In this document: positions 1,405 to 10,006 of the stretch, piece by piece
Layout of the letters: every line of letters starts with the position of its first letter
Position numbering within the stretch: position 1 is the stretch's first letter
Assembly: GCF_009848685.1 (NCBI RefSeq)
Contig: NZ_WXTX01000022.1
Location: 1 to 39,578, forward strand
Source: Andreprevotia sp. IGB-42
Lineage (GTDB): Bacteria > Pseudomonadota > Gammaproteobacteria > Burkholderiales > Chitinibacteraceae
Length of the DNA: 39,578 nt
Reading direction: 5' to 3'
Position numbers and translations under genes: made by a program
The notes under the pieces: model-generated
What the model was told of the DNA's origin: nothing
Databases searched by the model: none
What the model saw: only the letters and a program-made list of their open reading frames with translations

Positions 1405-3063
1405 TCAGCCGCGGAACTGATCGAGCTCGCGGCGCAGCTCCTCGGACTTGCGCCCGAGTTCAACTGCTGCAGTATAAATCTCGTCGGCGTCTTTGGCGCT
1501 GACTGCGAGCGAGTGATTTACCGCATCCAGCTCGCCACTGATGCGCGATACCGATACTTCGATCGATTGCGACTGCGCAACCGACTCGCCAACGCGCAGG
1601 TTGGCATCCTGCATCATGCCCACCGTAGCTGCGATGGCACCCAGCGCATCGTTGGATGTAGCCACCAGCGCCTGTGCCTGCGCGGCGGTTTCCTTCATGT
1701 CGCCGGCGGTATGGTTGATCGCCCCCACCACGGTATCGATCACCTTGCGCGAATCAGCCAGCGCATAGTCGGTCTGCCCGGCCAGCTTGCGTACTTCGTC
1801 TGCCACCACGGCAAAACCACGGCCGGCCTCGCCAGCGCGCGCAGCCTCGATAGCGGCATTCAACGCCAACAGATTGATCTGGCCCGAAATCTCCTGCACC
1901 ACATTCAGGATGCGCGTGATCTGCGCGGTATCGACCGACAGCTGCTGCAAATCATCCGCCAGGCGCTGGCTGGCGCCGGCACCGTCATGCACGCCGCCCA
2001 CCATGCGATCGAGTTCGCTCTTGGCCGCTGCCAGCTTGCCGCCGGCATCCTGCACGCAGCCGCGTACCGATTCGGCCAGGCTGGCGGCATCCCCCGCCGC
2101 ATTGCGGATGCTGCTCACCTCGCCATTGATATGGCCCAGCTGGCCGGCGCTGCTGGCAATCTCGCTACGCACTTCCTCGGCAATGCCGACAAACTGCTGC
2201 GCCATGGCCGCCGTCTGCTCGGCGCTACGGCGACCGGCGGCAAACACATCGCGGATCAACGCCAGCAAGCGGTTGAGTTTTTCGGCAATGCGGGCGATTT
2301 CATCGCGGCCCAGTACCTGTACCGCACGGCCCAGATCACGCGATTCGGCCACGCCGTCGATATCGTTGGCCACGCGGCGGATGCGCGCGACGATACGCCG
2401 CGCCGCCAGCACCGCCAGCGCACTACCCAGCAACAGGCAGACCACCGCAATCGCCAGCAATTGCCAGAAGCTGGCCCACAACGCTTCGGATACGCGCGCC
2501 ATGGTGACGTCCACGCCGATCACATAGCTGGCGCCATCAGCGGCTTTCATCGGCATGAAAATGGAACGGAAGGTGCCGAACTTGTCGCTGTACTCGGCAA
2601 ACTGCGTGTTGCCGGTTTCCCAAGCCAGCATCACCGCCGGATCGGCATCGTTGTAATGCTCGAAGTACCTGGCATAGTTGCCGGCATCGAATTCCTTCTG
2701 CGGTGCGCCGTCGGCAATGTAGTAAACCTTGCCGTCGCGCACCGTCATCAGATACGTGTATGACAGCCCCACCTTTTGCGCGTAGCTACCCAGCTTGAGC
2801 ACCAGCGCCCGGTATTCATCGATGCCGATCGCGCCCGGCGCCTTGGCCCGTGCCACATAGCCGGGGTCGATGATGAAGGGCACTGCAAATGCGGCAGCAC
2901 GCAGCCGGCCATCGATTTCCGCCCGCACATCGGTGGCTTTGTCGAAATAGGTATTGCCGGTAAAGGCGACGATCACCAGCACCTGTACTGTCAGGATCCA
3001 GACGAGGATACGGCGGAACAGGGAACCGGTATTACCGGCAAGCGTGTTGGATGGGGTGGACAA
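1405..3063 (-). CDS. Methyl-accepting chemotaxis protein
   Basis: This 552 aa inner-membrane chemoreceptor signals to the CheA/CheW arrays. It has a first membrane helix at about residues 18-36, a periplasmic sensor of about 160 residues (probably Cache-like), a second helix at about 198-220, a HAMP linker, and a cytoplasmic signalling domain. The highly conserved hairpin tip is present at about 391-430 ([20 protein letters not shown], then [15 protein letters not shown]). There is no C-terminal CheR/CheB-binding pentapeptide; the protein ends LDQFRG. The start is TTG at 3063 with a strong AAGGAG Shine-Dalgarno six bases upstream, and there is no ATG before the first membrane helix. The ligand cannot be read from the sequence. 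Confidence 0.93.
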
Positions 3064-3137: not shown

Positions 3138-3488
3138 TCAGCCCGGGAAGGGCGGCAGTGCCTTGCGTACGCTGGCTGGCAGCTTGGCCCGCACCAAGGC
3201 ATAAGAGGCATCGAGCAACGCGGCGAAATCGGTATCGGGCAAGGTGGCCGGGCTATCGAGCATGATCCAGTGGTAGCGCCCCAGATAGGGCGCAGCGCGT
3301 ACACCGGGCTGATCGGTCAGCTCCAGGAAGCGGGCCGGATCGACCTTGAAGCACACACTGCCGCTCTTGAGGCCATAGATGGCAAACATCTTGGCGCCAA
3401 CGGAATACGCCTCGTTGCTTTCCCATTTGATATCCATGCTGGCGCCAGGCAAGGCAGCACAATGCTTGCGGAACTCATCTGCAGTCAT
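3138..3488 (-). CDS. MmcQ/YjbR family protein
   Basis: This 116 aa protein belongs to the small YjbR/MmcQ family (CyaY-like alpha/beta fold, sometimes annotated DNA-binding), whose cellular role is poorly known. Typical family features are MTADEFRKHCAALPG at the N-terminus, KMFAIYGLKSGSVCFKVDP in the centre, and GRYHWIMLD before the last helices. The ATG at 3488 was chosen because the family consensus starts there; the frame stays open upstream but that part is not conserved-looking. It lies 82 bases downstream of the SMC-like gene and 74 bases upstream of the chemotaxis gene, all on the same strand. No functional link to the condensin-like cluster can be shown. Confidence 0.85.
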   Translation of the reverse strand: MTADEFRKHCAALPGASMDIKWESNEAYSVGAKMFAIYGLKSGSVCFKVDPARFLELTDQPGVRAAPYLGRYHWIMLDSPATLPDTDFAALLDASYALVRAKLPASVRKALPPFPG

Positions 3489-3570
3489 GCTCGATACAGT
3501 CCTCGGTTGGTCCCGGATACCGCCACCCCAGAGCGCGGCAGTAACCAGTGCGCAACGCAGTGTAGCGTGC

Positions 3571-6393
3571 TCAGCCTGTGGCGGCAGCCTCGGCAGTGCG
3601 CACGCGGCGGCGTGTCTGCGCGATGATCGGCGCCCATTGCTCGCCCGGCTGCTTCTTGCGCGTGGTGAGCGTGAGCTCGGATGGCCCATACACATTGGTG
3701 TTGTGCGTAAGCGGCGTGGTAATCAGATATTGCGCCTGCGTGGCCTTCAGAAAGCCGCCCACGCGGTCGATGTTGAAGATGTCCAGGTGAGCAAACGGCT
3801 CGTCGATGAACACGAAGCCGGACGGATTGGCTTCGTCCATCATCAGACCGATCAGCAGGATCAGCGATTTCATTACCTGCTGTCCCCCGGATGCCTCGCC
3901 ATCGTTCAGGCCCATCATGCCTTTCTGGTCGAAGTTGAAGCGCGCAGACAACCCCGCCTGCGCCAGCGTCAGGTCATCGTTATCAAGGTGCGGCAGCTCC
4001 AGCTCGATGTCGATACCGGCCAGCTCGCCCAGCCGCTTCACATTGCGGCCGTACGCGCGCACCGTAGCGCGCAGCTTGTTGATGTAGGCGGCGCGCGCTT
4101 CATCCGTCAGCCCGTTGGTGCGGATCACTTCGTTGCGATGCACTTGGGTGTCACGCTCCAGTGCCGCGTAGTCACCGGCCAGCTTGTCGCGGCGCGCCAG
4201 GATGGTGGGGTCGGTTTCCCAGTCGCCTCCGGCCAGGCGCGCGCGCTCATGCTCGATCATGTGCAGCACCTCGCGCGAGCCGGCGTATTTCTCCTTCAGC
4301 TCACGCAGTGCACTGGCCTGCGCCAGCTCGGCTGGCAACGCGGCCTTGGCAGTACGCAGGCTGCGGATCTGCCTGCTTTGTTCTTCACGCTGGCGCGACA
4401 GCTGTTCGATCAGCGTGCTGACCTGGCCATCCAGCCGGCTACGCTGGTCCTTGAGCTTTTCATAGCGGATGCGGCCTTCCTCGCGCGCGTTGCGGGTTTC
4501 TTCCCATGCGGCCTGCGCGGCGGCCAGTGCCGCACCGGCCTCCTGCGCGCGGCGCTCTTCTTCCGGCCAGCGCTCGGCCACGGCGGCAAATTCATCCTGG
4601 CGGGCGGCCAGCTGCACGACCGCCTGCATGCCCATCAATGACTGGGTGAGGCCGGACGCTTCGCGCTCCAGTTCCAGCAAGCGGGCTTCGTCCGCCAGCA
4701 GCTTTTCATTCAGATCACGCAAGCGGCGGCTCACTTCTGCCAGTCGCGAATGGCGCGCTGCCTCGCCAAAGGCGTAATCGCCCGGCTTGGCGGAGATATC
4801 GCGCGCGCCACGCCGTTCCTTGTGATAGCCCTCGCGGGTGATCCAGTCGCCATCGATGCGGTTGCCATCGGCCACTGATTTCGCACGCGACGTGCGATTG
4901 AGCAGGCCGATCAGCCAGCCCGGTGCATCCGCCTTGAAATCGACGATTTCCAGGATGCTGCCCGGCGCAGCTGCCCCCACCGGCTCCCGGTCCGGCACCA
5001 CGAAGTGGCGGAAGCGCAGCTGCTGGCCGATTTCCCATGCCCGCGCCTTGTCCGTCGCCTTGTTGAGCAGGATGATATGGCGGTACGGCGCCAGCAAGGC
5101 CTCCACCGCGTCCTGCCAGCTGTTATCGCTGACTTCGACGATTTCGGTCAGCAACTGGTGCGCCACGCCGGCTTCATCCAGCGCCGCGCGCATCTGCCGG
5201 ACAAAATCCGGATGCGGCTGGCGGCCCTGCTGCAGCGCGAACTGCGCTTCGGACATCTGCTGGCGTTCGTCCTTCATCAGGCGGATGGCCTGCTTCAGCT
5301 GCGCCGCCGCTTCTTTTTTCCTGCCCAGTGCATCGTTCAGCGCCACCGCATCGGCACCGTGCTCCAGCTCGGCCAGCTGGCGCAGCCGCTCGGCATCCTT
5401 GAGGGTTTTCTCGCTGTCCCGCGCTACATCGCGCGCGCCCTGGAACGCGGCAAACGCCGCATCGTATTCGTTGCGCGCCGCTTGCTCATTACCTAGCACC
5501 GCGTTTTGCTGCGCATCTGCACTGCGGAATTCGCTGTCGATGATATCCAGCTCATCCTGCTTCTGCTTCAGGCCACGCCGGCTGCCCTTGAACTGGTTGA
5601 TATAGCCGCGCAGGCTTTCCCATTGCTCCACATAGCGCAGCGCCGGGATCGCCTGCTTTTCCAGCTGTTCAACGTCGTCCTGCAGCGCGCGCCATTCGGT
5701 GAAGCTGTTGCCGCGCAGCCGCAGCCGCTCCACATCCAGCCCGAGCTGCGACAGCTGCTGCTCCAGCTTGCCCAGCTCGCCCTCGGCCTCTTTCAGGCGC
5801 AACTTGGTCTCGCTGTAGTGATCGAGCACTTCCTTGTCGCCAAATACCTGGAACACCAGCTCCAACAGCGCCTTGGGGCTGTATTCGCACAGCTTGTCGG
5901 TATCGCCCTGCTCCAGCGCCAGCACCTCGGCAATCGCCGGCGTCAGCCCCGCCTGTTCCAGCCGGCGCTTGTATTCGTTCACGCCCAGCCACTGCAGCCG
6001 GGTTTCGGTATCAGCATTCAGCGCCGTATCGCCCTCGGCGATTGCATACTGGCGTACCCAGTCACCCCCTTGCTTGCGGATGCGGCAGAACAGCGTCACC
6101 TCATCGCTGGTGGCCGGGAAAAACAGATAGGGAAATAAGCCGCCGCCTTGGCGGCGCGGGTTGCTCACCACCGCGCGCAACCACGCATAGTTCTCACGGT
6201 TATTGCGGACATAGCGCTTGTAATCACGCCGGCCAGAGCACTTCAGCGCCAGGATCGTGCGCAACGCATCCAGCAACGTGGTCTTGCCCGAGCCATTGGG
6301 GCCGACGATGGTAACGATCTGCGCATCGAGCGGCACGCGGATGGCACGCCAGAAATCCCAATGCACCATTTCCAGTTCGCGAATCTGAAACAC
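3571..6393 (-). CDS. SMC-family ATPase, MksB/MukB/JetC-like (condensin-like subunit)
   Basis: This 940 aa protein has SMC architecture. The Walker A motif GPNGSGKTTL is at residues 31-40. Long coiled-coil arms (about 175-370 and 555-745) flank a globular hinge-like middle (about 390-530, with WQDAVEALLAPYRHIILL). The C-terminal head carries an ABC signature-like ASGGQQ (about 834-839) and Walker B plus D-loop FVFIDEPFAHLD (about 860-871). It is shorter than bacterial SMC (about 1,150-1,200 aa) and MukB (about 1,490 aa), as expected for the MksB/JetC group. The start is GTG at 6393, directly abutting the TAA of the upstream MksE-like gene, so translation is probably coupled. The role inferred from the family is ATP-driven DNA loop extrusion, for chromosome organisation or plasmid exclusion. 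RecN or Rad50-like proteins are less likely given the kleisin-like partners. Confidence 0.85.
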   Translation of the reverse strand: MFQIRELEMVHWDFWRAIRVPLDAQIVTIVGPNGSGKTTLLDALRTILALKCSGRRDYKRYVRNNRENYAWLRAVVSNPRRQGGGLFPYLFFPATSDEVTLFCRIRKQGGDWVRQYAIAEGDTALNADTETRLQWLGVNEYKRRLEQAGLTPAIAEVLALEQGDTDKLCEYSPKALLELVFQVFGDKEVLDHYSETKLRLKEAEGELGKLEQQLSQLGLDVERLRLRGNSFTEWRALQDDVEQLEKQAIPALRYVEQWESLRGYINQFKGSRRGLKQKQDELDIIDSEFRSADAQQNAVLGNEQAARNEYDAAFAAFQGARDVARDSEKTLKDAERLRQLAELEHGADAVALNDALGRKKEAAAQLKQAIRLMKDERQQMSEAQFALQQGRQPHPDFVRQMRAALDEAGVAHQLLTEIVEVSDNSWQDAVEALLAPYRHIILLNKATDKARAWEIGQQLRFRHFVVPDREPVGAAAPGSILEIVDFKADAPGWLIGLLNRTSRAKSVADGNRIDGDWITREGYHKERRGARDISAKPGDYAFGEAARHSRLAEVSRRLRDLNEKLLADEARLLELEREASGLTQSLMGMQAVVQLAARQDEFAAVAERWPEEERRAQEAGAALAAAQAAWEETRNAREEGRIRYEKLKDQRSRLDGQVSTLIEQLSRQREEQSRQIRSLRTAKAALPAELAQASALRELKEKYAGSREVLHMIEHERARLAGGDWETDPTILARRDKLAGDYAALERDTQVHRNEVIRTNGLTDEARAAYINKLRATVRAYGRNVKRLGELAGIDIELELPHLDNDDLTLAQAGLSARFNFDQKGMMGLNDGEASGGQQVMKSLILLIGLMMDEANPSGFVFIDEPFAHLDIFNIDRVGGFLKATQAQYLITTPLTHNTNVYGPSELTLTTRKKQPGEQWAPIIAQTRRRVRTAEAAATG

Positions 6394-7095
6394 TTATTCT
6401 TCTCCCGCCGCGATGACATCCGGCGCATCTGTATTCGCGAAAGCATCCACCTGCACGGCGATCTGCGTGCCCGACAACTGCAACACCTCACCCAGCGCCC
6501 CCTCGATGATGCGCGGCGCGAGTTTGGCGTAGTCGATCATCAGATCGAGCAGCGGGCCCTCGTGGATCAACTTGTTGCGACGGATCACGAAGCCCAGCTT
6601 GGCCAGTTGCCCCAGATTCATCGAGAAGCGTGCCTTGCCGCCCAGTTTCTTGCCGAAATCGGCATAGATGGCGTCTTCCGGCACGCCGGGTGCCATTTCC
6701 TCGCCGTGGGTGATGGGTTTTTCACTGCCGAACATGTCCGACTGCGTATCGCCTGCGCGGCCGGCGCGGGCAATCTGCCGCTCACGCTTGGGCAAGATGA
6801 TCAGCGCCCACAGCACCACCAGCAACGCGATGGCATCACGCGGCAGGCCCATATTGTTGCTGAGCCAGTTTTCGCCTTCACCGAACACCCAGTCTTCCAT
6901 CTCGGGCTTGAGGCCGACGGCAATATGTTCGGCGTACGGGTTCTCCAACAATTGCAGGCCGCACTCTTCGAGCCGGTGGTCGAGGCTGGCGCGGAAGGTT
7001 TCGTCGATCAGCGCACGGCGTGCCAGCGGATCACGACGGGGAATGAAGCGGTGCGCCAGCAGGCGCGCCACCAGGATATTCAGGGCTTGGTCCAT
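6394..7095 (-). CDS. MukE/MksE/JetB-like condensin accessory protein (candidate)
   Basis: This 233 aa protein has an N-terminal helical part (LNILVARLLAHRFIPRRDPL), a central hydrophobic helix (AIALLVVLWALIILPKRERQ), and a winged-helix-like C-terminal half (FSMNLGQLAKLGFVIRRN, then a helix and strand). Size, fold impression and position directly before the SMC gene fit the KITE subunits MukE, MksE and JetB, which bind the kleisin and regulate the SMC ATPase. No motif proves this; the call rests on context and length. Its stop codon is immediately followed by the GTG start of the SMC gene, and it lies 46 bases after the unrecognised 216 aa gene. The ATG at 7095 is the only reasonable start. 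Confidence 0.65.
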   Translation of the reverse strand: MDQALNILVARLLAHRFIPRRDPLARRALIDETFRASLDHRLEECGLQLLENPYAEHIAVGLKPEMEDWVFGEGENWLSNNMGLPRDAIALLVVLWALIILPKRERQIARAGRAGDTQSDMFGSEKPITHGEEMAPGVPEDAIYADFGKKLGGKARFSMNLGQLAKLGFVIRRNKLIHEGPLLDLMIDYAKLAPRIIEGALGEVLQLSGTQIAVQVDAFANTDAPDVIAAGEE

Positions 7096-7111
7096 CGTTA
7101 ACTCGGGGTAC

Positions 7112-7132
7112 TACCGCGCGGCATGCGCGGTA
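7112..7132 (-). other. GC-rich stem-loop inside the condensin-like operon
   Basis: A perfect 8-bp inverted repeat (TACCGCGC / GCGCGGTA, arms 7112-7119 and 7125-7132, 5-base loop) fills the 46-base gap between the 216 aa gene and the MksE-like gene. No T-tract follows, so it is not a classic terminator. It could stabilise or separate the mRNA segments and set subunit ratios; that is inference. Confidence 0.45.
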
Positions 7133-7141
7133 CGGGGAACA

Positions 7142-7792
7142 TCAGCGCTTGAGCAGCGCATTGATCTGGCTGGGGCGGCCCAGCAACGTTTTGGCCAGCT
7201 CTTCACACAATGCGGGATTGCACTCGGCCGGATCGAGCAGCAGCACATCCTCGCCCAGCTGATCCAGATTGCGCACGGTCAGCTGGATCTTGGCCGTTTC
7301 GATTTGCGCCTCGAAACGCAGCCGCGTGGGCAGCATCGGCTCCACGGTGATGGCGGAGCGCTGGAAGCGTTCTTCGGCAGTCTTGGTGATTTTCTCTTCC
7401 AACCGGCACCCCAGATGCCACAGCCGGTCTTTCAGGAACTGCGCTTCCACCTGGCTGCCGAACGACACCTTCAACGGACGCGGCGCGCGCCAGTTGATGC
7501 CGAACTCGATCAGGCTGTACCAGTCGACATTCTCGATGCTGGTCTGGCGCAGGTTGACGGCAGCATTCTCGAACGCCAGATTGGTCCACTCGCCGGCGCT
7601 CCATGCCTTGAACGTATGCGCATTGGTCGGCTTGATCACGCGCAACTGTTCCACCAGCTCATCCAGGTAGGCAAAAACAGCCCGCAGCGCAGCATCGATC
7701 GCTTCCAGGTTGCTGCGTAGCTGCGCCTTGGCATCTTTCTCATTGGCGGCGGCAGACTGCGCCTGTTGTTTCAGTTCGTCGAGTAAGCCCAT
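7142..7792 (-). CDS. Unrecognised 216 aa protein, fourth gene of the condensin-like cluster
   Basis: I do not recognise a family. The first 55 residues are strongly helical and charged (starting MGLLDELKQQAQSAAANEKD) and look like a short coiled coil. The middle has tryptophan-rich loops (AWSAGEWTNLAF, NVDWYSL). The C-terminal half alternates short strands and helices (PLKVSFGSQVEAQFLKDRLW, LRFEAQIETAKIQLTVRN) and ends in a helix. There is no signal peptide, membrane helix or nuclease-type catalytic motif. The ATG at 7792 was chosen because an AGAGAAAG sequence precedes it and the coiled coil begins there. It sits between the kleisin-like and MksE-like genes, so an SMC-complex subunit or regulator is the natural hypothesis. 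Confidence 0.7.
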   Translation of the reverse strand: MGLLDELKQQAQSAAANEKDAKAQLRSNLEAIDAALRAVFAYLDELVEQLRVIKPTNAHTFKAWSAGEWTNLAFENAAVNLRQTSIENVDWYSLIEFGINWRAPRPLKVSFGSQVEAQFLKDRLWHLGCRLEEKITKTAEERFQRSAITVEPMLPTRLRFEAQIETAKIQLTVRNLDQLGEDVLLLDPAECNPALCEELAKTLLGRPSQINALLKR

Positions 7793-7802
7793 CTTTCTCT
7801 GT

Positions 7803-7828
7803 CCGGCATGATGCCGGTCTGATGCCGG
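7803..7828 (-). other. Triple CCGGCAT/ATGCCGG repeat able to form two alternative hairpins
   Basis: One CCGGCAT arm (7803-7809) can pair with either of two ATGCCGG copies (7811-7817 or 7822-7828). The structure ends 11 bases upstream of the start codon of the 216 aa gene, so it would sit against its ribosome binding site. This is directly visible; any regulatory role is inference. Confidence 0.4.
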
Positions 7829-7860
7829 CACCTGGTTGATTTTATAACGTCGTCACGCAT

Positions 7861-9126
7861 TCAGCGGGGTTTCAGGCTACCACGCGTCAGCGTGGCTACC
7901 TCGGGGTGATCCAGTTCGTCGACCGCATCTTCGGTATGCAGCGCCAGCGGCAGCTTGACGATATCGGCAACGATGCTCTGCTCCAGCGCCGCATCCGCAT
8001 CACCCAGCAACGATAGCAGCGACAGCCGGTAGGCCGTTTCCGGATAGGTATCGGCCAGCACCGCATCGGCCAGCGTGGCTTCGATGCGCACGTCTTTCAG
8101 ATAAGCAAACAGCTCCTCGGCCAGCACCAGGCGCTCGGCCTCGACAGCGGTAACCGATTGCGCCAGCTCGGATGTGGGCAGCGCCGATTCCAGCACCGTA
8201 TCACGCTCGCGTTCCAGCAGTTCGAACTCGGTCACATCTAGCAGGATATCGGATACCACCAGCGCTGGCTCGGGGTGAAAGGTCAGCAGATCGCGGCCCA
8301 GCGCGGCAAGCTGCTCTTGCGAACGCGCGCGCAGCCAGTCTGCCACGTTGGTCGACGTCAGCCCGGATTGCCCCAGGTGCACGCGCTGCGCGGCCAGCTC
8401 GGCCAGCCGGCGCTGGAATACCCCGGTCATGCGCAGCATGCGGCCCTGCGCCAGCGCAATGGCCTGCGCCACCTGCTGCACCTGGCGCTCGCTGCTTTCG
8501 TCCTCCAGTACCTGGCGGATCACATCGGTACCTTTCTCCACCCAGCGCCACACGCTTTCCAGCTTGGTGCGTGCCCGGGTAATCTGGAATTCGGATTGCG
8601 ATTCCAGCGCATCGGCAAAATCGCCATGCAATTCGTTCAGGCGCGCCAGCAAATGCTGCAGCGTTTCCGGGGCGATATTGCCCAGTGACTGTCCTGCCGC
8701 CACTTGCGCGGTCAGGTAGCCCAGCTCCGCATCGCCATCGGCAAACTGCGTGAGCGTAGCGAGCGCCGCCAAAGCCACCCGGCCCGGCTCGCTCAGCGAA
8801 TACAGCGCGGCATCACTATCCCACACCAGCAAGCCGTTATCGCGCAGGCGCTTGAGCACCGTATCGCGCTTCACCGGATTGATATAGGCAAAATGGGCGT
8901 CCAGCTCTTGCGGGCTCCAGCGCGGCGCATCGGCACGCGCGCCGATCTCGCGCAGGATCAGCAAACGCACCAGCACCTCATCCTCGCCGCCACGAAACAG
9001 CGTGATCAGCGCATCCAGATACGGCTTGGCGCGCAACAGGCCGGCCAGCGGTCCCAGATCGCGCGGGTCAAATCCGGGCTGGAAAAAATCGTCCAGTGGC
9101 GAATCAGTGATGGATGGCTTGGTCAT
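7861..9126 (-). CDS. Kleisin-like MksF/MukF/JetA-type subunit (candidate)
   Basis: This protein of about 421 aa (423 if the ATG at 9132 is used) opens with a winged-helix region (about residues 30-130: LVRLLILREIGA, then DTVLKRLRDNGLLVWDSD and LYSLSEPGRVALAALA). A long helical middle rich in Leu, Glu, Gln and Arg follows (about 150-330, with RARTKLESVWRWVEKGTDVI). The C-terminal part is shorter and more acidic. This pattern, with an SMC gene in the same cluster, matches kleisins of the MukF/MksF/JetA type, which bridge the SMC heads. There is no enzymatic motif. Its start overlaps the end of the glycosyltransferase gene by 23-29 bases, implying translational coupling. The family assignment is an inference from architecture and context. 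Confidence 0.68.
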   Translation of the reverse strand: MTKPSITDSPLDDFFQPGFDPRDLGPLAGLLRAKPYLDALITLFRGGEDEVLVRLLILREIGARADAPRWSPQELDAHFAYINPVKRDTVLKRLRDNGLLVWDSDAALYSLSEPGRVALAALATLTQFADGDAELGYLTAQVAAGQSLGNIAPETLQHLLARLNELHGDFADALESQSEFQITRARTKLESVWRWVEKGTDVIRQVLEDESSERQVQQVAQAIALAQGRMLRMTGVFQRRLAELAAQRVHLGQSGLTSTNVADWLRARSQEQLAALGRDLLTFHPEPALVVSDILLDVTEFELLERERDTVLESALPTSELAQSVTAVEAERLVLAEELFAYLKDVRIEATLADAVLADTYPETAYRLSLLSLLGDADAALEQSIVADIVKLPLALHTEDAVDELDHPEVATLTRGSLKPR

Positions 9127-10006
9127 CGGCATTCAGGGAAGTGGGCGCGGCGAATGAACTGGCGAGTGCGGCATCGAGTACATCGGCCAGCACGCCATCG
9201 GCGGCAAACTTGCGGGCAAACAACGCTGGGCTGGCCAGCAGCGCCGGCAGATCATCCGCCGAGAACGTGCGCGGCGACCATGCGCCATCCGCCCATTCCA
9301 GATGGCGCAGCGCATCGTGCGCCACCTGTTCGGCAAACGGCGTATGCGCCAGCATGGTCTGGAAAAACATCTCGTCCGGCACCAGTGTTTTACGGAAGAA
9401 ATCCGGCAATTGCGGTTGCGCGGCCACAAAAGCCAATATCGCTTGTCCAGCATCGGCGTGCAAACACCACCACTGCGAGCCGGCGCGTACCGCTTGCAAA
9501 GGCATCGGCAAGCGGCGATGCACACCCAGGCGGCCGGCGAGGCGTTGCAGCTTTTGCACGCCGCGATCGAACAGGCTGCGGTTCAATGCCTCGAAATGAA
9601 AGGCCTGCCAGCGGTAACGCACATCAAATTCGGCAACGCTGCGGCTGTCGATATAGCCAGCACGGCCGCCGTGCAGCAGCCGGGCAGCAATTTCAGTATT
9701 GGATTTGAGCGGGTAATCCTGGCCGGACAATAGCACCAGCCAGTCGCAGCCATCGGCCAGCGCCGCCCGCATCAGGCGCAGCGTGGCGGCCACCAGCGAG
9801 AAACCACCCCAGCGGCACGGCACGCGCTCGACAAAAGTCACCGCAGCGCCTGCCGGCATCGCCTGCCCGATGGCGGCAAAGGTCTGCGCCGGGGTATTGG
9901 CGTCGATGTGCAGATAGAACGCCGTATCCGGCGTAGCCAGCCGCGCCACCAGCCGGCCCAGTTGGGCCGGATGCGCGTGGGCCAGTATCAGGTAAGCGAT
10001 CCGCAC
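9104..10006 (-). CDS. GT14 (core-2/I-branching) family glycosyltransferase
   Basis: This 300 aa cytoplasmic enzyme starts with the typical MRIAYLILAHAHPAQLGRLV. It then shows YLHIDANT, CRWGGFSLVAATLRLM, the family hallmark WLVLLSGQDYPLKS (about residue 106), and a YRWQAFHFEALN segment. It belongs to the bacterial relatives of beta-1,6-N-acetylglucosaminyltransferases, which transfer GlcNAc or xylose without a DXD motif. Donor and acceptor are unknown here. The start is GTG at 10006, because the first strand begins exactly there. It is 20 bases after obgE and overlaps the kleisin-like gene by 23-29 bases at its 3' end. A glycosyltransferase wedged between obgE and a condensin-like cluster is odd and may reflect chance operon packing. 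Confidence 0.85.
   Translation of the reverse strand: MRIAYLILAHAHPAQLGRLVARLATPDTAFYLHIDANTPAQTFAAIGQAMPAGAAVTFVERVPCRWGGFSLVAATLRLMRAALADGCDWLVLLSGQDYPLKSNTEIAARLLHGGRAGYIDSRSVAEFDVRYRWQAFHFEALNRSLFDRGVQKLQRLAGRLGVHRRLPMPLQAVRAGSQWWCLHADAGQAILAFVAAQPQLPDFFRKTLVPDEMFFQTMLAHTPFAEQVAHDALRHLEWADGAWSPRTFSADDLPALLASPALFARKFAADGVLADVLDAALASSFAAPTSLNADDQAIHH

Follow-up and report, generated by a model that had tools for sequence, protein, structure and literature searches.

The 39,578-nucleotide stretch of DNA analysed here (hereafter the window) is a contig of the 4.7-Mb genome of Andreprevotia sp. IGB-42 (completeness 100%) and carries a cluster of genes for a putative structural maintenance of chromosomes (SMC) complex. 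Four consecutive genes lie on its minus strand: F (positions 7861 to 9132, 423 residues), kleisin-like and of the JetA/MukF type; X (7142 to 7792, 216 residues, or 229 residues in the listed open reading frame, which starts at 7831), an optional inserted gene; E (6394 to 7095, 233 residues), a predicted JetB-type KITE protein; and B (3571 to 6393, 940 residues), a predicted JetC-type SMC ATPase with heads, coiled coils and a hinge-like middle. The original prediction, made from the letters of the window alone, had described four such genes, and the list of open reading frames contains all of them at these positions. Relatives exist for all four proteins, and the ratio of nonsynonymous to synonymous substitution rates (dN/dS) of each is well below 1. 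Here we report that F, E and B form the predicted core of the cluster, that a gene for a JetD-family nuclease (D) directly follows B in some relatives, and that this pattern points to a nuclease-free derivative of a Wadjet-type operon.

The identity of B is indicated by its sequence. Its best PADLOC match is JetC1 (E-value 1.6e-23), and an hhalign comparison with eleven aligned type I JetC frames returned a probability of 98.5 over 612 columns, as against 69.7 over 75 columns for MukB. Both searches point to a JetC-type SMC protein, the motor of Wadjet systems. The best NCBIfam match is SMC_prok_B (TIGR02168), at 91.4 bits against a cut-off of 567.35. The motifs GPNGSGKT, ASGGQQ, FIDE and HLD, which we take to be the Walker A, signature, Walker B and D-loop motifs, respectively, do not vary in any of the 22 members aligned, in agreement with the SMC ATPase originally proposed.

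E was recognized through its fold. In an AlphaFold model based on 37 sequences (mean predicted local distance difference test score (pLDDT) 72.2, predicted template modelling score (pTM) 0.60), the top three PDB fold matches are all JetB (8as8_C at 8.6e-5, 8dk1_E at 2.4e-4 and 8dk1_F at 2.6e-4), followed by Nse1/MAGE (0.009 and 0.013) and, more weakly, by ScpB (0.068). E is therefore modelled as a JetB-type KITE subunit, which bears out the earlier description of a KITE/MksE-like protein. Matches to sequence families are weaker: Pfam DUF4194 is found in 15 of the 37 E members (best 6.4e-4) and PADLOC JetB1 in 6 of 37 (best 0.0025), and the window's own E has no Pfam or PADLOC match. A PDB sequence search with E gave no useful match, and hhalign profiles of E found nothing against JetB or MukE, a weak test because MukE and several Wadjet types were represented by single sequences.

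The AlphaFold model of F (mean pLDDT 75.6, pTM 0.41) has a winged helix at the N terminus and a winged-helix-like end at the C terminus, joined by a long helical middle, which we take to be the layout of MukF and JetA kleisins. Its best PDB fold match is MukF, although a weak one (9gm7_C, E-value 0.028), and the MukF fragment 1t98 appears further down (0.20 and 0.33), amid numerous regulators with winged helices. Neither a Pfam search nor a PDB sequence search with F returned a useful match. The kleisin-like character claimed for this protein agrees with the modelled layout, but the MukF score is weak; the assignment of F as a kleisin draws more on the layout, the order of the genes and the partner proteins than on any score, and is the weak link of the complex. 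At one locus (L020, contig C1 of genome G032), the F frame contains one TGA and is separated from E by about 480 bases, possibly reflecting a pseudogene or a sequencing error; this F was left out of the alignments.

Scanning the genome collection with B yielded 59 loci, of which L086 and L087 were dropped since a contig end cuts B, leaving 57 named loci in Andreprevotia, Chitiniphilus, Silvimonas, Iodobacter, Deefgea, Chitinibacter, Chromobacterium, Aquitalea, Vogesella, Pseudogulbenkiania, Paludibacterium, Leeia and others. E lies near B at all 57, and F lies beside E–B at 54; L042 is cut off inside E, so F is out of reach there. As judged from this gene content, the core is three genes, F, E and B. 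Within the family of the window, F is found in 42 of 43 genomes, with one match each and in all 11 genera, and in all 42 genomes with at least 90% completeness and at most 5% contamination. Among the 293 class genomes searched, only the window's own genome and G227 match F, and none of 72,556 plasmid records does. The chromosomal site is often the same: obgE lies upstream in 39 of the 57 named stretches; in 31 of these no more than 1.5 kb separates it from the F frame, in some Chromobacterium and Aquitalea the distance is 3.7–5.3 kb, and the other 18 stretches do not contain it. Searches of the window's genome for SMC and ScpA additionally gave a separate canonical SMC (1008.7 bits against TIGR02168) and ScpA, so that F–E–B probably stands beside the SMC–ScpAB type of complex, a point for which the original prediction had proposed a check. 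Three loci have an extra gene between E and B (L029, 7438–8001; L038, 7456–8001; L047, 7406–7942, in their own stretches), and that of L038, the single one tested, matches a Pfam acetyltransferase.

A further gene, D (405–409 residues), directly follows B at 9 of the 57 named loci (two in Silvimonas, five in Aquitalea and two in Pseudogulbenkiania) and at six of nine deeper relatives (L124, L125, L126, L130, L162 and L163; L127, L128 and L129 have no D after B), and it adjoins B in every F–E–B–D or B–D stretch read. All four D proteins tested match PADLOC JetD1 (best 2.3e-22) and Pfam DUF2399, and one matches JetD_C; a PDB sequence search with D gave no useful match. On these family matches, D is a predicted JetD-family TOPRIM nuclease. 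The glutamate and the DxD motif that serve TOPRIM domains are largely retained: the glutamate is kept in 12 of 14 aligned copies and is a glutamine in both Pseudogulbenkiania copies (L073 and L084), and DxD is kept in 13 of 14, its second aspartate being a histidine in L126. The D proteins of L073, L084 and L126 may therefore be inactive. A gene of about 390 residues that follows B in Iodobacter, Chitinibacter, Deefgea and Formivibrio was considered as a JetD candidate and rejected, as its homologue in the window is the gene at 218–1387, which is presumably rlmL-like. Two genomes with F–E–B–D (G046, L156; G192, L157) have a second operon that encodes another SMC protein and a JetD1-family nuclease. 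In G227, which lies outside the order, the stretch L164 contains several fragments of a broken F and, of D, no more than the tail, and E and B were not found in it; by its sequence, L164 is probably a remnant of an F–E–B–D locus.

In a scan of 200 genomes of the order, D was found in 8 (7 strong matches) and F in 31 (30 strong matches and one at 8.8e-4); the strong counts leave out this weak F match of G193 and two short D matches of G175. Six of the seven genomes with strong D matches are among the 30 with strong F matches, and in the seventh, G073 (87% complete), D lies next to B. In the family of the window, D is present in 4 of 43 genomes and undetected in 39. The earlier observation that the window holds no JetD homologue extends to the whole genome, in which we found neither a D homologue nor JetD_C; a search of it with PF09664 (DUF2399) was also empty, although the controls were silent too. 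As D is undetected here, we class the cluster as a nuclease-free derivative rather than as a Wadjet system, in which JetD would accompany JetABC.

The place that D occupies in relatives can be recognized in the window. D lies between B and a yjbR-family gene in Silvimonas and in G529, and the window has this right-hand flank at 3138–3557 on the minus strand (Pfam YjbR, 1.9e-15). No gene separates B from yjbR in the window or at L029, L030, L033 and L035, and yjbR begins at most 86 bases after the end of the B frame at these four loci. Two genera mix species with and without D at the B–yjbR site (G529 versus G528; G551, G553 and G554 versus G552), and one of these D-variable genera adjoins that of the window. 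In the B tree, G529 groups with the window, A. lacus and C. albus in a supported clade of four rows (100/99). With the root chosen at L130 and L163, the deep splits of the D tree match those of the B tree, first Silvimonas–Chitinolyticbacter beside Chromobacteriaceae (100/99) and then L162 with L124/L126 (84–87). Because the deep branching is shared, D looks to have been inherited with the operon and lost repeatedly, and some regain of D is possible.

Since relatives carry a JetD-family gene directly after B, we interpret the cluster of the window as a Wadjet-type operon after nuclease loss. In full, we propose that F, E and B make up a nuclease-free JetABC-type complex, derived from a Wadjet/MksBEFG-type F–E–B–D operon and kept, through vertical inheritance, as a core condensin beside Smc–ScpAB, and we put the probability of this reading at about two in three. 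The original interpretation thus holds insofar as it saw an SMC–kleisin–KITE cluster of the MksBEF–Wadjet kind without JetD, and does not hold for the four-subunit subtype that it suggested. Of the two functions it offered, chromosome organisation and plasmid restriction by a non-nuclease route, the former appears the better one. That the motor is retained in this bacterium and most of its sampled family although the cutting part is gone hints at defence machinery put to new use in organising the chromosome. We are evenly divided on the more specific proposition that a plasmid-defence SMC machine is here turning into a chromosome condensin, the JetABC motor now being part of the near-universal core set of one family, with its nuclease dropped repeatedly and recently and still varying between species of one genus.

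In the mechanism that we envisage, with steps drawn from Wadjet, MksBEF and MukBEF, B would dimerise at its hinge, F would bridge the B heads, E dimers would bind F, and ATP-driven cycles would reel in loops of DNA. In relatives with D, the nuclease would be activated when extrusion stalls on a small circular plasmid, and would then cut it. Deprived of D, the motor could only fold DNA, and would help to organise or segregate the chromosome; X would count as an accessory present in some lineages rather than as a required subunit.

Several observations weigh against our reading. PADLOC JukB matches 21 of 37 F members (best 1.9e-5), more of them than JetA1, which matches 4 of 37 (best 0.0022); the window's own F is without a JukB match. 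Comparisons of F with JetA and MukF by hhalign returned nothing, a weak test given that MukF and several Wadjet types were single sequences. The Paludibacterium loci L067 and L082 have E–B, with E at about 7309, and no F within the 7.3 kb upstream of E, a sequence that contains no N stretches. No remnant of the nuclease gene was seen in the loci that lack D. The D and B trees disagree inside the genera Silvimonas and Aquitalea, and support for the deepest splits of the D tree is moderate (84–91). Finally, in a 67-row B tree, unordered parsimony explains D by 6 changes if gains are allowed, compared with 15 under loss only; a tree behind these two counts is a quick build with long-branch warnings. 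A 24-row B tree of nearer kin requires 5 changes.

The complex might instead still act against plasmids or phages without a nuclease of its own, with JetABC compacting or silencing small circular DNA or recruiting a host nuclease. The closest named PADLOC relatives of B, E and D are Wadjet proteins, human Smc5/6 acts in antiviral immunity according to a review (PMC10586767), and the second JetD operon beside F–E–B–D in G046 and G192 indicates that defence needs persist in the clade. However, the same review places JetABCD in about 5–10% of bacteria, compared with F in 42 of 43 genomes of the family, and names JetD as the cutting subunit of Wadjet; moreover, F often occupies a fixed housekeeping locus and was on no plasmid record searched. 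We regard a continuing defence role as unlikely, albeit worth keeping in mind.

The reverse direction of change, in which the ancestor was a nuclease-free condensin that D joined several times, turning it into defence systems, seems to us improbable. It would account for the scarcity of D relative to the core (D at 15 of 67 loci) and for the lower parsimony count given above, whereas D immediately follows B wherever a lineage carries it, the strong D genomes of the order carry F or, in the seventh case, B beside D, and the deep branching of D and B agrees.

Gene X bears on the third alternative, in which F, X, E and B form a distinct four-subunit condensin with X as a new subunit or as an effector replacing JetD. 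Wherever X is present, its place is between F and E, and it is under purifying selection (dN/dS 0.084–0.263 in four pairs). Yet X is present at only 9 of the 57 named loci and undetected at 48, one of which (L042) starts inside E and hence cannot be judged for X, and it therefore fails as the regular cluster member that the original prediction assumed. X occurs together with D in Silvimonas terrae (L083). Relatives of X are found in 25 of 321 class genomes, including that of the window, and ten X-bearing stretches from other class genomes, read with longer flanks, have no F, E, B or D nearby; nine stretches compared for their neighbours share only X itself, as judged with crude picking of open reading frames. 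Because X occurs at so few loci and has relatives elsewhere apart from the core, it is probably a passenger or an optional accessory of some lineages. As X is patchy, coexists with D and stands alone elsewhere, we rejected it as a required subunit or JetD-replacing effector, and a four-subunit condensin subtype is very hard to maintain. No family match above the cut-off was obtained for X, and Pfam gave none for ten aligned X proteins. The X family consists mostly of stand-alone genes (L132–L141) of about 250–360 residues in most frames seen, with at most three matches per genome, and its proteins begin with a conserved LLDELK-like stretch.

Selection was estimated by YN00, or by NG86 where YN00 failed. 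For F, E and B, dN/dS is 0.028–0.183 in nine pairs that lack D; in pairs with D it is 0.034–0.066 in two and up to 0.265 (NG86) in three further pairs. The D-bearing pairs thus reach values above those of the D-lacking pairs, and we therefore see no sign of relaxed constraint in the absence of D. D itself has dN/dS values of 0.066–0.263 (YN00, six pairs). That the cluster is a decaying relic of a defence operon, for which the missing nuclease, the broken F pieces and D tail of L164 and the two Paludibacterium loci without F beside E–B could be cited, is scarcely credible and, for the family of the window, largely refuted by these values, by the invariant ATPase motifs of B and by the presence of F in every good-quality genome of the family.

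Beyond the yjbR-family gene, the window contains a gene at 1405–3063, which we take to encode a chemotaxis-receptor-like protein. Of the named loci compared, only L029 of Andreprevotia lacus shares with the window this gene in its place between yjbR and the rlmL-like gene. A promoter scan found none where 1.5 promoter-like sequences were expected, and a terminator scan was uninformative (9 terminator-like sequences, 6.5 expected).

Sister species that differ in the nuclease at one and the same chromosomal site allow the step from one form to the other to be tested like with like. Does the motor alone fold the chromosome, does the nuclease-bearing form cut plasmids, and what spares the chromosome? 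If our reading is true, these bacteria would offer a living test of the idea that the MksBEF and MukBEF condensins came from Wadjet, which the review puts forward as speculation, regarding it as unsettled where Wadjet came from and how it relates to other SMC complexes (PMC10586767). Among the matches listed in our literature search, from which the subscription literature was mostly absent, no publication dealt with F–E–B in these genera or with Wadjet loci whose nuclease varies within a genus.

Four known systems come closest to the cluster. Smc–ScpAB likewise combines an SMC protein with kleisin and KITE partners; however, the canonical SMC and ScpA of the genome are separate from the cluster, and B scores far below the cut-off of the canonical SMC family. 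MukBEF shares the kleisin–KITE–SMC order, and the best, weak fold match of F is MukF, but B matches MukB over only 75 columns, E and F have no sequence match to MukE or MukF, and MukBEF replaces Smc–ScpAB, unlike in this genome, where SMC and ScpA are present. Wadjet, that is JetABCD (also MksBEFG or EptABCD), in which JetABC senses circular DNA and JetD cuts it, as described in PMC10586767, agrees in the gene order kleisin–KITE–SMC(–nuclease), in the JetC match of B, in the JetB-like fold of E and in the JetD family of the relatives' D. It differs in that D is undetected in the window's genome and in 39 of 43 family genomes, in that B has 940 residues compared with 1120–1170 in the eleven type I JetC frames, and in that the F–E–B core is near-universal in the family, with F and E scoring below family cut-offs. 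MksBEF of Pseudomonas aeruginosa, compared here by gene content, is likewise a three-subunit MukBEF-like condensin and coexists with SMC, according to PMC7485682; PMC10123090 presents MksG as a nuclease that forms the fourth subunit of the Mks system. The cluster resembles MksBEF in having a kleisin-like protein, with F as the weak link, a KITE protein and an SMC protein in one cluster without a nuclease, beside SMC and ScpA. Unlike with MksBEF, sister species here still carry the nuclease at the same locus. By analogy, the cluster would be the same kind of product of nuclease loss as MksBEF, seen beside its nuclease-bearing sisters, and the route speculated for MksBEF appears here to have been taken repeatedly and to be still variable within genera.

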